Source: a candidate division KSB1 bacterium (lineage in GTDB: Bacteria; Zhuqueibacterota; JdFR-76; DREG01). Taken from it: a DNA stretch of 24,061 nt. Positions 15,257 to 22,694 of the stretch are shown one piece after another (position 1 is the stretch's first letter; every line of letters begins with the position of its first letter). The position numbers and the translations under genes were made by a program. The notes beneath the pieces were generated by a model, which searched no databases, was not told the origin of the DNA, and saw nothing but the letters and a program-made list of their open reading frames with translations. The DNA lies in NCBI GenBank assembly GCA_022566355.1, contig JADFJB010000070.1, forward strand, positions 1 through 24,061, read 5' to 3'.

Positions 15257-15940
15257 ATGTGTGGTAGATTTTCAATATCAGCAAGAGAAGAGATTCTTGA
15301 AAAAAGATTTGGCGCCAGTTTTTACACTGAGACCATCGAAAAGAGATTTAATATTGCGCCTACTGATAAGGCTCCGATCATAACAAATACCACTCCGGAT
15401 CGTATCCAGCTTTTCCAGTGGGGATTGATCCCCTATTGGTCGAAAGAGCCTTCAATCGGAGCAAGGCTAATAAACGCCCGGGATGATACGATAGCTGATA
15501 AACCAGCTTTCAGGGATTCTTTTAGAAGGAAAAGGTGCCTGGTTTTATCAGATGGATTTTATGAATGGAGAAAAATATCAACTGGCAAAATCCCATATCG
15601 CATAACTTTAAAAGATGGTGAACCATTCGCTTATGCCGGCTTGTGGGATAAATGGAAAAATGGCCAGGGAGAGAAGTTTACCTTCACCATTATAACAACA
15701 GAACCCAATGACCTGGTAAAAAAACTGCACAACCGTATGCCTGTTATTTTAAAACCTGAAGACGAGTCTGCGTGGCTGGACCAGAGTATTCCTCTCCAAC
15801 ATGCCCGTCAATTGCTCCAACCTTATGCTGGTGACAAAATGGAAATTTACCCCGTTTCGACGATGGTCAATTCCTCGCGTAATGAAGCTCCCGAGCTAAT
15901 TGAACCTTGCGATTATCCTGATTTAGTTGAGTGGTTTTGA
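15257..15940 (+). CDS. yedK: SRAP-domain abasic-site protein (YedK/HMCES family)
   Basis: The protein (227 aa) has the full length of bacterial SRAP proteins and begins MCGRFS. Cys2 becomes the catalytic N-terminal residue after Met removal and forms the thiazolidine crosslink with abasic sites in single-stranded DNA, which fixes the start at 15257. The other active-site residues are in place: Asn73 in LINAR, Glu103 in GFYEW and His158 in LHNRMPVIL. The family shields abasic sites during replication and is often located with SOS genes. Here the error-prone polymerases and S24 regulator follow within 7 kb. The 3' end of this gene is present a second time at 16482-16553. A toxin pseudogene on the opposite strand ends 9 bases after its stop. 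Confidence 0.95.
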   Translation: MCGRFSISAREEILEKRFGASFYTETIEKRFNIAPTDKAPIITNTTPDRIQLFQWGLIPYWSKEPSIGARLINARDDTIADKPAFRDSFRRKRCLVLSDGFYEWRKISTGKIPYRITLKDGEPFAYAGLWDKWKNGQGEKFTFTIITTEPNDLVKKLHNRMPVILKPEDESAWLDQSIPLQHARQLLQPYAGDKMEIYPVSTMVNSSRNEAPELIEPCDYPDLVEWF

Positions 15941-17161: not shown

Positions 17162-20134
17162 CTAAACATCTACTCCCCTCAATCTCCCCGGCTTTAACTC
17201 CTCCTCCAATCTCGGATCCGGCCGTAACGGCAGTTTGACCATTTTGTCCACTTCAATACTGGGATGGCCAAATTCTTCGACAATTTTTCCTTTTACTGCA
17301 TACAACCCATAGCCCCGAAAAGGATATTGCTGTAAACTTTGCGGAAAGTGAGTGGTGTCAAAAAAATCACCGTCAACATCCAAAAAATTGGCAAAGTGCA
17401 TCTGGTCACCTTTAACAGTGCGTATATACTTGATGGACACCAGGTAACCGACCATGCGCACGGTTTTACCGACCTGGTTCATCAGTTCCTGTGCTTTTAT
17501 ATCGCCACGGTGACTCGTTTTAAGCAAATCGAACGGCGAGCACAACGGAAAACCCAGCAATTCGATTTCATCATAAGTATCTTCCAGGGGTTCATGGACC
17601 AAGTGAGGAAGCTGGTATTGTTTGGTGGCAACCGCGAATAGCGATCTCTCCGGTTTGGAGCGGCCCACACCCAGGCGAAGGTGAGCATGCCAGAGCAGCT
17701 CTTTTTTGCTTTGGCCGCTGAATCGAAAAGCACCAATGCGAATCAGGATCACCAACTGTTCGAGAGAAATAGAAACACGATTAAGAAAATCATCCGGATT
17801 TTTGAAGGGTCCTTGTTTTTCTCGCTCGTACGGAATCGCCCGGCCAATCTTTTGCTCCAAATCCTTCAGGTGAATGAATCCCAGGTAAAGGGTCTCGCCC
17901 CGAATCCTGGTGAGGAGATTGCTATGATTAACGCATGGCGCCTCAACGTTCGCTCCCTCTTTTCGGGCTTCATGAATGTAAATTTCAGTGCGATAAAATC
18001 CGCCGAAATTATTGATCACGGCCGTCATAAATTCCAGCGGATAGTAAGCTTTTAAAAACAGGCTCTGGTAACTTTCCACCGCAAAACTTGCCGAATGTGC
18101 CTTACAAAATGAATAGCCGGAGAAACTTTCCATCTGGCGCCAGACTTCTTTGGTCAGTGATTCTGGATATCCCTTCTCGTTGCAGTTGGCAAAAAATTTA
18201 TCTATCACTTTCTGAAATGCGTCCAGGGAGCGGGTCTTGCCCGACATGGCCCGGCGCAAGATGTCCGCCTCACCAAGATCAAGACCGGCGAAGTGATGGG
18301 CAATCTTGATCACATCTTCCTGGTAGACCATCACGCCAAAGGTCTCCTGCAGATTCTCCTTAAAAATGGGATGCAGATACTCAAACTGATCCGGGTGGTG
18401 GAAACGCCAGATATATTCCCGCATCATGCCCGACTTTGCCACACCGGGGCGGATAATGGAGCTGGCAGCTACCAGCCCTAAGTAGGTATCGCAACGCAGC
18501 TTACTCAGCAATCCGCGCATGGCAGGCGATTCGATGTAAAAACAACCCATGGTCTTACCCTTGCGCAGCATCTTCTTAACTTTTTCATCCCTGGTAAAAC
18601 GGGAAACCTGGTGAATATCCACCTTCGTACCGCGGTTTTCCCGGATGTATTCAACCGCATCTTTGATATGCCCCAAACCCCGTTGGGACAGGATATCATA
18701 TTTATAGAAGCCAAAATCTTCCGCCACGTGCATGTCCCAGTGTGTCGTGGGAAATCCTTTTGGCATCATCTCCAGGGCGGTGTAGCAGGTGATCGGCTCT
18801 TCTGTAATCAACACTCCGCCGGCATGGATGCTCAAATAATTCGGGAATTTTTCGATGAGCTTGCCGTAACGAATAATACTATCCGTAATATGATTTCCTT
18901 TCTCTGAGTATGAACTGTTCAGAAAGGCGTCTATTTCGCTTTTCGGCAAACCGTACACTTTGCCAAGCTCACGGACAATGGATTTCCCCTTAAAGGTGTT
19001 GTAGGTCGCCAGCAGCGCTACATATTTTCTGCCGTAGCGTTTGAAAATATAATCGATGATTTCATCGCGCTCATTCCAGGAAAAGTCGATATCAAAATCG
19101 GGTGGACTGGTGCGGTGGGGATTTATAAAACGTTCGAAATACAGATCCAATTCTATAGGATCGATATCGGTAATGCCAAGACAGTATGCCACTATTGAAT
19201 TGGCGCCGCTGCCCCTGCCAACGTGGTGATATCCGCGGCCCTGGGCATAGCGCACAATATCCCAGGTGATCAAAAAATAGGCAGAAAAATCCAATCGGTC
19301 GATGATATTCAGCTCTTTCTCGAGACGTGCATTGGCCTCGCGATTGTGTTCACCATAGCGGCAGCGCATCCCTTCGATTGCCAGCTTATCCAGCAACGAC
19401 CTGTCGTCGCGGCGGCTGCCGGTAAATGTCTTCCTGTTCTTGGGGGAATCCAGGTCCAGGTCGACCGAGCAATTTGCGGCCAGCTTATCAGTGGTGCGAA
19501 TAACCTGTGGAAAATTTCGGTAGCAATCCAAAAGCCGGTCCATCGACATCAAGATTTCATTACCGGAGGCATGGTCTGTTTCAGTTAATTGGCTGAATAA
19601 AATGTTGTTATCCACTGCCCGTAAAAGCCGGTGAACATGGTATTCCAGCCGGGTATTAAACGTAACGGAATGAAAAATCACAAGTTTGTCTTGATAAGCC
19701 TTTTCCTCCGAACCGTATAGCCTGGGCACATCCGTAACTTTAACGCCGATAAATTCATTTTCCTTTAAGTCAGCCACACTTTTGCTGCCAAAAGGATAAA
19801 TGACATAGGCATGTTCAAAATCCGGCGCGGTTTCCGGCAGGGATGTTTTGGCCAGGGAGCATGCTGTCAAATGTTCGTTCAGTTCTCGAATGCCCTGGTT
19901 GTTTTTGGCAATACCCACATACAATAACTCCTGGCCGTTCCTGAACTCGATGCCCAGCAAAGGTTTTATATTGGCTTTTTTACAGGCCAAATAAAAATCG
20001 AAGCACGCCGAAGTATTGTTGATATCTGTTAAGGCAAGGACTTCTACGCCTTTGGCCTGGGCTTCAGATGCCAATCGCTCCGGCGATAGCGTGCCGTAGC
20101 GCATGCTGTAGTATGTGTGACAGTTTAAATGCAT
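17162..20134 (-). CDS. dnaE2: Error-prone DNA polymerase III alpha subunit (DnaE2-type)
   Basis: The C-family polymerase (990 aa) has an N-terminal PHP domain (MHLNCHTYYSMRYGTLSPER), whose HxH pair is incomplete (N-C-H). The palm domain includes GRGSGANSIVAYCLGI and the catalytic PDFDIDFSW near residues 343-351. The fingers/thumb region includes VMVYQEDVIKIAHHFAGLDL and LRRAMSGK, followed by a helix-hairpin-helix region. A C-terminal OB fold (about 890-975) ends shortly before the end. It is shorter than the replicative DnaE (about 1160 aa) and lacks the tau-binding tail, matching the DnaE2 group used in translesion synthesis. Its neighbours are DinB, the S24 regulator and SRAP. On the minus strand it follows dinB after 346 bases filled with repeats. 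No Shine-Dalgarno precedes the ATG. Confidence 0.93.
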   Translation of the reverse strand: MHLNCHTYYSMRYGTLSPERLASEAQAKGVEVLALTDINNTSACFDFYLACKKANIKPLLGIEFRNGQELLYVGIAKNNQGIRELNEHLTACSLAKTSLPETAPDFEHAYVIYPFGSKSVADLKENEFIGVKVTDVPRLYGSEEKAYQDKLVIFHSVTFNTRLEYHVHRLLRAVDNNILFSQLTETDHASGNEILMSMDRLLDCYRNFPQVIRTTDKLAANCSVDLDLDSPKNRKTFTGSRRDDRSLLDKLAIEGMRCRYGEHNREANARLEKELNIIDRLDFSAYFLITWDIVRYAQGRGYHHVGRGSGANSIVAYCLGITDIDPIELDLYFERFINPHRTSPPDFDIDFSWNERDEIIDYIFKRYGRKYVALLATYNTFKGKSIVRELGKVYGLPKSEIDAFLNSSYSEKGNHITDSIIRYGKLIEKFPNYLSIHAGGVLITEEPITCYTALEMMPKGFPTTHWDMHVAEDFGFYKYDILSQRGLGHIKDAVEYIRENRGTKVDIHQVSRFTRDEKVKKMLRKGKTMGCFYIESPAMRGLLSKLRCDTYLGLVAASSIIRPGVAKSGMMREYIWRFHHPDQFEYLHPIFKENLQETFGVMVYQEDVIKIAHHFAGLDLGEADILRRAMSGKTRSLDAFQKVIDKFFANCNEKGYPESLTKEVWRQMESFSGYSFCKAHSASFAVESYQSLFLKAYYPLEFMTAVINNFGGFYRTEIYIHEARKEGANVEAPCVNHSNLLTRIRGETLYLGFIHLKDLEQKIGRAIPYEREKQGPFKNPDDFLNRVSISLEQLVILIRIGAFRFSGQSKKELLWHAHLRLGVGRSKPERSLFAVATKQYQLPHLVHEPLEDTYDEIELLGFPLCSPFDLLKTSHRGDIKAQELMNQVGKTVRMVGYLVSIKYIRTVKGDQMHFANFLDVDGDFFDTTHFPQSLQQYPFRGYGLYAVKGKIVEEFGHPSIEVDKMVKLPLRPDPRLEEELKPGRLRGVDV

Positions 20135-20480: not shown

Positions 20481-21677
20481 TTATTTTTGTTTAAACATCT
20501 TCGTGACTTCTGTGTCTCTGTGACCGGCCTTTACTGAGGATGCCCGCCTGATTGCATTTGCACCATATCGTACCTTGATGCGATCAATGGCCTGGTAAAG
20601 CTTGATTACCCGGTCGTTGTCATCGAACAAATCGATCTGGTCATAACCCGGCACCAGGTGACTGAACTTTACCCCAACCAGGCGAAGCAGCATTCTCCGT
20701 TTGTATGCCTTATCAAAAAGTCCCATTGTTTTTTCGATGAGCACATGATCGTGGGCCGTGTAGGATACCCTGGCTTGCACCGTATGGGTATCAAAATTTG
20801 AATAGCGGATTTTCACCGAAACGCAGGACGTCAATTTTCGTGATCTGCGCAGGTCAAAGGCCAGGCGTTCCACCATGCCCAAAAGGATCGATTTGAGCTT
20901 AGCGATGTCGGTGGTATCCCTTTCGAACGTTCGTTCGGTGGACATGGATTTGGCATCCGAGTACGGAACCACCGGGGTATTATCGATACCATTGGCTCGC
21001 TGCCACAAGATAATCCCGTTTTTGCCGAACACCCGTTCCATCATATCGACAGGGATTTCGCTCAACGTTGCGATTTTTCGTACTCCCATGTTGATCAGCA
21101 ATTGGTTGGTTTTCTTGCCGACCATGGGCATCTTGGCAATCGAAAGCGGGGCAATGAATTCTCTTTCTCGGCCCGTTTCCACCTCCAATTGGCCGTCCGG
21201 CTTCACCTCTCCTGTAGCGATCTTGGCAACGGTTTTATTCACCGATAGCCCGAATGTAATGGGCAGTCCAATCTCCTTGCGTACGGTTTTCTTAAAATCC
21301 ACCGCCCATTTGTAACAGCCAAAGAATCGTTCCATGCCGGTAAGCTCCACATAAAACTCGTCGATGGAAGATTTTTCGAACAGGGGCGCTCTTTCGGTAA
21401 TGGCCTCCGTGACCATATCGGAATAGCGGGTGTAGGCATCAAAATCGCCGGAGATCACCTGAATTTCCGGGCACAGGTATTTGGCTACTTTCATCGGCAT
21501 TGCAGAACGGACGCCAAATTGCCGCGCTTCGTAACTGGAGCAGGCCACCACCGCCCGGTCGCTGTTGCCGCCGATTACAATGGGTCTGCCAATCAGTTCC
21601 CTGTTGTGGAGCCTTTCCACGCTGACGAAGAAGCTGTCCAGGTCCAGGTGGACGATGTGTCGGTTGTTGGAATTCAT
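20481..21677 (-). CDS. dinB: Y-family translesion DNA polymerase (DinB/Pol IV-like)
   Basis: The protein (398 aa) opens with HIVHLDLDSFFVSVE, whose Asp12 is a catalytic metal ligand. SSIDEFY follows with Asp106-Glu107, completing the acidic triad. The palm/fingers domain (YEARQFGVRSAMP), the thumb helix-hairpin-helix (MPMVGKKTNQLLINMGVRKI) and the little-finger domain (about 240-345) are all present. Residues 347-351 read QIDLF, a textbook beta-clamp-binding motif, which argues for a functional replicative-clamp partner. It bypasses lesions at low fidelity. It is probably the first gene of a dinB-dnaE2 unit, with the S24 regulator reading away from it. No clear ribosome site is seen; a GGAGGGG lies too far upstream, within a repeat. 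Confidence 0.95.
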   Translation of the reverse strand: MNSNNRHIVHLDLDSFFVSVERLHNRELIGRPIVIGGNSDRAVVACSSYEARQFGVRSAMPMKVAKYLCPEIQVISGDFDAYTRYSDMVTEAITERAPLFEKSSIDEFYVELTGMERFFGCYKWAVDFKKTVRKEIGLPITFGLSVNKTVAKIATGEVKPDGQLEVETGREREFIAPLSIAKMPMVGKKTNQLLINMGVRKIATLSEIPVDMMERVFGKNGIILWQRANGIDNTPVVPYSDAKSMSTERTFERDTTDIAKLKSILLGMVERLAFDLRRSRKLTSCVSVKIRYSNFDTHTVQARVSYTAHDHVLIEKTMGLFDKAYKRRMLLRLVGVKFSHLVPGYDQIDLFDDNDRVIKLYQAIDRIKVRYGANAIRRASSVKAGHRDTEVTKMFKQK

Positions 21678-21697: not shown

Positions 21698-21768
21698 CCC
21701 CTCCTAACCTCCCCTTATCAAGGGGAGGAATTTCCCCTCCTTGTTAAGGAGGGGTCAGGGGAGGTTAA
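21698..21768. repeat. Palindromic CCTCCCCTT/AAGGGGAGG repeat
   Basis: The left half CCCCTCCTAACCTCCCCTTA and AAGGGGAGGAA is followed by the inverted half CCCCTCCTTGTTAAGGAGGG and CAGGGGAGGTTAA. It is a GC-rich imperfect dyad of the widespread short intergenic type, lying 20 bases upstream of the dinB ATG, so it would be in the dinB leader. Confidence 0.7.
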
Positions 21769-21821
21769 CCTCATAAAAAACTTGCTTCTTTCTACAAAAT
21801 CCGCTAATTTACATAGCAATG

Positions 21822-21854
21822 ATACAAATATTATCGGCATTATGCAAATATAAT
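21822..21854 (+). promoter_or_regulatory. Pair of direct repeats, candidate operator of the mutagenesis genes
   Basis: ATACAAATATTAT (21822-21834) and ATGCAAATATAAT (21842-21854) match ATRCAAATATWAT at a 20-base spacing, about two helical turns. They lie in the divergent region between dinB and the S24 regulator gene, where a LexA-like repressor would be expected to bind. The site is inferred only from position and repetition. Confidence 0.35.
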
Positions 21855-21881
21855 TAGCAGTTATTTTTTAAAGGTTCAGCA

Positions 21882-22694
21882 ATAAAATTCTTCAATACTA
21901 ACATAAAGTATCTCAGAAAAGAGATGGGCCTGTCTCAAACCGAGTTTGGCAAACGTTTCGGTTTGGAACGCGGTGCGGTGGATTCCTATGAAGGCAATCG
22001 TGCCGTAGCGCCGGTTAAAATTCTACTCAAACTAGCAGAACAGATCGGTGTGAAAATCGATGAGTTGCTAAATTTCGAATTGAGCAAAATCCTTGGCTAT
22101 GACAGCGAGCGGGGTTGGTTTCCTAAAATTAAAACAAGCACTCCGGTTCAGAAACTAAATATCCTGCCCATTGTGGTAGATGAAGACAATAACGAATTCG
22201 TCACGGTTGTGCCGATCCCGGCCCAGGCGGGTTATCTCGCAGGTTATGGAGATCCGGAATATATCGAATACTTACCTCGGATGAAATGGCCGTTTCATCA
22301 TTTACAGGGGACCGGCAGATTCTTCCAGATCCAGGGAGAAAGTATGCTGCCGATTGAGCCAGGTTCTTATATTCTAACTGAATATGTCTTGAATTTAACT
22401 GACATCAAAAATGACAAATGTTATGTGCTGGTCAGCAAAAACGACGGGATCGTGTATAAACGGGTTTTTAAAAAGCCGGACGAGGATAAGTTGCTGCTGA
22501 AATCGGACAACGTCGATTTTGAACCTTACGAAATTGACCTGGCTGAAATCTTACAGGTGTGGAAAGCCGTTGCGTATTTAAGCCTGGACTTGCCTCATTC
22601 GAATGATTTGACTTCCAAAAATCTGACAGGAACGGTAATGAAGCTGCAACAGGATGTGAAAAGGATTAAGCAGAGATTGGAGATAAAGAATTGA
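21882..22694 (+). CDS. HTH-S24 self-cleaving regulator (LexA/UmuD-like)
   Basis: The N-terminal XRE-type helix-turn-helix (NTNIKYLRKEMGLSQTEFGK and on) is joined to an S24 peptidase domain. Numbered from ATG 21924, the cleavage pair is Ala102-Gly103 in PAQAGYLAGYG, the nucleophile is Ser140 in GESMLP, and the general base is Lys179 in VYKRVF. Like LexA or UmuD, it should self-cleave on RecA-ssDNA and so control or activate translesion synthesis. The start is unusual. The first ATG (21924) would delete helix 1 of the HTH, while the frame continues upstream as KFFNTNIKYLRKE from an ATA at 21882. That ATA is preceded at 7 bases by AAAGG (21870-21874). Either ATA is used for initiation or an ATG has mutated. 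A coiled-coil-like tail ends the protein. It is divergent from dinB. Confidence 0.88.
   Translation: MKFFNTNIKYLRKEMGLSQTEFGKRFGLERGAVDSYEGNRAVAPVKILLKLAEQIGVKIDELLNFELSKILGYDSERGWFPKIKTSTPVQKLNILPIVVDEDNNEFVTVVPIPAQAGYLAGYGDPEYIEYLPRMKWPFHHLQGTGRFFQIQGESMLPIEPGSYILTEYVLNLTDIKNDKCYVLVSKNDGIVYKRVFKKPDEDKLLLKSDNVDFEPYEIDLAEILQVWKAVAYLSLDLPHSNDLTSKNLTGTVMKLQQDVKRIKQRLEIKN

Follow-up and report, generated by a model that had tools for sequence, protein, structure and literature searches.

Genes for the initiation factor IF3 (infC) are known to begin at AUU, AUC or AUA codons, and these starts are conserved and autoregulatory. In S. aureus, AUA starts have been proven experimentally for infC, citZ and ccpN, the last of which encodes a helix-turn-helix (HTH) repressor; the reporters tested gave about 10% of the AUG output, and ccpN rose to as much as 30% in rich medium (PMC13009471). 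The Streptomyces stress regulator gene sigR carries a GTC start that is repressed by IF3 (PMC5472188). Among SOS regulators, a non-canonical LexA family has been described that combines a CI-like HTH_3 domain with an S24 peptidase domain, contains an Ala-Gly bond and a Ser-Lys dyad and uses CTAA-N5-TTAG operators (Sanchez-Osuna et al. 2021, PMC8565304). Operator binding as well as mitomycin C induction of the regulator and of a divergent polymerase have been published for this family, which was described as exclusive to Bacteroidota (PMC8565304).

We analyzed a window of 24,061 nt, positions 1 to 24,061 of contig JADFJB010000070.1 (assembly GCA_022566355.1) from a candidate division KSB1 bacterium, which contains a regulator gene next to a divergent error-prone polymerase cassette (Table 1). 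By its domain content the encoded protein is a non-canonical Bacteroidetes LexA with lambda-CI-like HTH_3 and S24 domains, and not a canonical LexA or UmuD. The preliminary description had called it LexA/UmuD-like; an assignment to LexA proper or UmuD did not hold. The N-terminal domain is CI-like, and the winged-helix profile LexA_DNA_bind (PF01726) found no match in the protein. With E. coli LexA and UmuD it shares the S24 self-cleavage domain, and a comparison of folds pairs its structural model with LexA and lambda-type repressors. The residues A116, G117, S154 and K193 are at least nearly invariant among homologues, and the reading frame is intact with conserved catalytic residues and no visible decay. 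The locus resembles the CTAA-N5-TTAG group (PMC8565304) in the HTH_3 and S24 domains, the Ala-Gly bond, the Ser-Lys dyad and the divergent error-prone polymerase gene and, tentatively, in the candidate operator sites of the shared promoter region. It differs in that the host lies outside Bacteroidota, which concerns the published distribution and not the structure of the family, ATA takes the place of ATG, each operator-like site bears one mismatch and exact sites show no genome-wide excess. By analogy with this group, the protein would act as a repressor that cleaves itself when triggered by RecA.

Table 1. Features of the regulator locus; nucleotide positions refer to the window, residues to the protein read from ATA 21882.
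Feature	Position	Strand	Remarks
SRAP (SOS response-associated peptidase) gene	15257–15940	+	beyond the dnaE end
dnaE, second Pol III alpha, error-prone cassette type	17162–20134	−	57% identical to Emticicia plasmid cassette DnaE
dinB-like Y-family polymerase	20481–21677	−	divergent from the regulator; 54–61% identical to Bacteroidota cassette DinB
Palindromic dispersed repeat, roughly 76 bp	21700–21775		between dinB and regulator; about 40 copies in host
Operator-like CTAA-TTTAC-ATAG	21804–21816		one mismatch to CTAA-N5-TTAG
Sigma-70-like dinB promoter TTTGCA-18-TATCAT	21819–21848	−	weak; whole scan gave fewer sites than shuffles
Two tandem 20-nt units, 75% alike	21819–21858	+	second unit holds operator-like site and TATAAT
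Operator-like CAAA-TATAA-TTAG	21845–21857		one mismatch to CTAA-N5-TTAG (motif: PMC8565304)
Upstream frame, part 1	TAG 21855–21857, then CAG TTA TTT TTT AAA GGT TCA GCA	+	read directly
AAAGG, Shine-Dalgarno-like	21870–21874	+	7-nt spacer to ATA 21882; sequence and genome SD statistics
Upstream frame, part 2	ATA(21882) AAA TTC TTC AAT ACT AAC ATA AAG TAT CTC AGA AAA GAG ATG(21924)	+	read directly
ATA, proposed start codon	21882–21884	+	homologue ATGs; other near-cognate codons of the open frame lack an SD-like motif
Regulator gene read from ATA 21882	21882–22694	+	270 codons plus TGA
First in-frame ATG	21924–21926	+	codon 15, end of helix 1; expected call of a standard gene finder
HTH_3 (PF01381)	residues 8–62		35 bits
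Peptidase_S24 (PF00717)	residues 123–221		27.6 bits
Predicted cleavage bond; catalytic residues	A116-G117; S154/K193		alignment of homologues

The frame of the regulator opens after the TAG at 21855–21857, and the stretch ahead of ATG 21924 encodes the peptide KFFNTNIKYLRKE. Between these two codons no ATG, GTG, TTG, CTG, ATT or ATC occurs in frame, and the near-cognate codons present are just ATA 21882, ATA 21903 and AAG 21906. No canonical start is compatible with the conserved N-terminus, and an SD-like motif is found upstream of ATA 21882. Out-of-frame ATGs upstream of 21882, followed by eye, hit stops within a few codons. Direct reading of the sequence confirmed the coordinates and the peptide of the preliminary description, including AAAGG seven bases before ATA 21882 and a frame without stops back to 21855. 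Its remark that ATG 21924 has no spaced ribosome site was borne out as well, as neither this codon nor ATA 21903 or AAG 21906 is preceded by an SD-like motif in the sequence.

By homology, ATA 21882 is the beginning of the protein. When in-frame codons were placed against the profile position, all 34 homologues proved to have an ATG somewhere between −6 and +3, counting codons from ATA 21882 (at +1 in 13 and at +2 in 16 of them). In the homologues closest by identity, L085 (40%), L084 (39%) and L096 (38%), the aligned position itself is an ATG. The expectation that homologue starts coincide with 21882 and that ATG is normal there thus proved right. N7 and R12 are invariant across the 35 aligned proteins, which marks the N-terminal stretch as genuinely coding. 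A near-cognate start was seen in none of the other 34 homologues, so that conservation of ATA at this position is unsupported.

In a 400-kb sample of the host genome, an SD-like 4-mer at such spacing is found before 44% of first in-frame ATGs, before 7% of internal ATGs and before about 8–10% of ATAs. The AAAGG before ATA 21882 gives roughly fivefold support for a start, which is supportive but modest and short of proof; stronger motifs are seen both at the host infC gene (AAAAGGAG) and in genes known to start at AUA, whose SDs are extended. The host has one IF3 gene (L101:1249, G000:C67) and also RecA. No ATG, GTG or TTG lies before residue 61 of infC, and its N-terminus starts at an ATC behind AAAAGGAG. 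Since infC is startable only at this ATC, host ribosomes use near-cognate starts, and near-cognate initiation together with discrimination by IF3 very probably operates in the host. A second candidate near-cognate start was noted in a Peptidase_C26 gene (L112:13046, G000:C11), which has no ATG, GTG or TTG ahead of its domain. The candidate is an ATT that overlaps the end of the frame before it and follows a GGAG located 8 nt upstream.

The regulator is like infC in having an essential N-terminus behind a near-cognate start with an SD ahead; it differs from the conserved and autoregulatory starts of infC in that its ATA is unique to one genome. With ccpN of S. aureus and B. subtilis it would share the combination of an HTH transcriptional repressor and an AUA start, but in ccpN the AUA is conserved and the SD extended, and the protein families are unrelated (PMC13009471). 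Streptomyces sigR offers a parallel in which a non-canonical start keeps the level of a stress regulator low, although sigR is a sigma factor, uses another codon and has been proven experimentally (PMC5472188).

From the starts of all homologues, an HTH_3 domain that is complete only when read from ATA 21882, the intact reading frame, the AAAGG motif and the host infC gene we infer a genuine, working AUA start at 21882 that is weak and IF3-sensitive, and assign this reading a probability of about 0.58. Taking the assembled sequence as genuine, translation would begin at AUA 21882, guided by AAAGG, and the initiator tRNA would put methionine at residue 1. As AUA is expected to be inefficient and to be discriminated by IF3, synthesis of the repressor would run at roughly one tenth to one third of the AUG rate, a range borrowed from the S. 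aureus figures and applied here by analogy. A repressor that scarce would be easily cleared: upon DNA damage RecA filaments would trigger the predicted cleavage at Ala116-Gly117, which would free the operators in 21804–21857, so that the regulator, presumably repressing itself, and dinB-dnaE would both be expressed. In such a scheme scarcity itself might be adaptive.

A single G-to-A change turns ATG into ATA, and a recent mutation or an error in the consensus of the metagenome-assembled genome would therefore explain the same data. If ATG was lost by recent mutation, the ATA would be a lesion rather than a device, with the repressor very low or absent and dinB-dnaE partly derepressed. The universal ATG of the 34 homologues, the uniqueness of ATA to the host genome, the only moderate SD and the fact that one transition suffices all speak for such a loss. 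However, the remainder of the gene is intact with its catalytic residues conserved, so any loss must be recent, and the AAAGG at its 7-nt distance points to an initiation site that has been maintained. We consider this rather unlikely; because AUA retains some initiation, it also grades into the reading as a weak working start. A one-base consensus error, with ATG or another canonical start as the true codon at 21882, we regard as unlikely. The genome is a draft of 213 contigs and the position falls within an A/T-rich run (AATAAAATTC), but completeness of the assembly is 98.5% and contamination 0.21%, and in our judgement a substitution would a priori seldom hit precisely a start codon.

Translation from ATG 21924 would yield a UmuD-like protein of 256 aa, lacking helix 1 and unable to bind DNA normally. 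This codon is the first canonical start of the frame and the one that a standard gene finder would be expected to choose. Against it, the HTH_3 match of 35 bits over profile positions 1–55 obtained from ATA 21882 falls to 22.9 bits over positions 9–55, under the Pfam cut-off of 23.0. In the predicted structure, whose mean pLDDT for residues 1–40 is above 90, helix 1 comprises residues 4–15, and a start at codon 15 would delete this DNA-binding helix, as had been proposed earlier from the sequence. Codons 1–14 encode conserved residues, and none of the 34 homologues needs a start at or near this codon, a finding that would have gone the other way had their starts aligned with ATG 21924; with the SD-like motif also missing there, we hold this start to be very improbable. 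Starts at ATA 21903 (codon 8) or AAG 21906, in-frame near-cognate codons though they are, can practically be dismissed, as they have no SD-like motif, lose the invariant N7 and coincide with no homologue start.

The polymerase genes beside the regulator have counterparts on plasmids. The same dnaE-dinB operon, with a homologue of the regulator in divergent orientation, is found on Emticicia and Chryseobacterium plasmids, and a Dyadobacter plasmid carries the imuA/Y-family/dnaE form of the cassette; an SRAP gene near the cassette is also present on the Emticicia plasmid (there beside the regulator) and on the Dyadobacter plasmid. A scan with a DinB alignment recovered 80 Bacteroidota loci, in 28 of which the regulator was detected, mostly divergent and directly upstream of dinB. 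Genome contigs scanned with the regulator alone as query gave no relatives, and viral contigs scanned with DinB gave no match.

In the control region, exact CTAA-N5-TTAG is absent from the regulator's own promoter region, where two sites with one mismatch occur. Two or more such sites per 114 nt are expected with P of about 0.004 in a first-order Markov simulation. The site at 21845–21857 overlaps a TATAAT at 21849–21854, about 28 nt before ATA 21882, and the weak dinB promoter-like match overlaps the operator region, too. The operator-like sites would fit shared repression of the regulator and dinB. A genome-wide regulon defined by exact GCWAA-N5-TTAGC was not supported, with 25 matches compared to 30 in the reversed control; nearly all of the sites inspected lie inside ORFs, and by eye none was seen just upstream of the RecA gene. 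Upstream of a subgroup of Bacteroidota homologues (L071, L074, L088, L023, L026 and L045) we observed TGATTA-N5-TAATCA palindromes, not CTAA-N5-TTAG, and these are a candidate for the diverged operator of that subgroup.

The host genome (G000) is a 4.6-Mb draft. The genome collection contains just 82 genomes of the host's phylum, a number so low that it speaks against Bacteroidota. At E <= 1e-20 the regulator was found only in the host among these 82 genomes. Canonical LexA, present in 72 of these 82 genomes including both other members of the host's family, where lexA adjoins dinB, was not detected in the host genome with either the LexA_DNA_bind profile or a family member's LexA as query. 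A replacement of the SOS regulator in the host is possible. The dispersed repeat within the cassette is the host's own, with several copies at contig ends of its genome, which makes binning contamination unlikely, and horizontal acquisition of the regulator cassette is the simplest reading. In the tree the regulator sits on a long branch, and neither the donor nor the direction of transfer is resolved. Elsewhere in the data a fumarase/aspartase-like frame (L120:8254-9592) without its N-terminus was noticed, possibly owing to a frameshift or to a fault in the assembly.

Should the AUA be genuine, an SOS-type repressor would join the very few bacterial genes for which near-cognate starts are on record. 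Such a start would hold repressor levels down and conceal the true first residue of the protein from gene finders, and the gene would be a concrete case of standard gene finders deleting a DNA-binding helix. That a host outside Bacteroidota lost its own LexA and now runs damage-inducible mutagenesis on an acquired Bacteroidota-type LexA, with AUA tying its supply to IF3 activity and translation fidelity setting the threshold, is an idea that we put forward as quite doubtful. Irrespective of the start codon, a non-canonical Bacteroidetes LexA is thereby located in a second phylum, in a host without detected canonical LexA, so that the exchange of one SOS regulator for an unrelated one can be put to the test.
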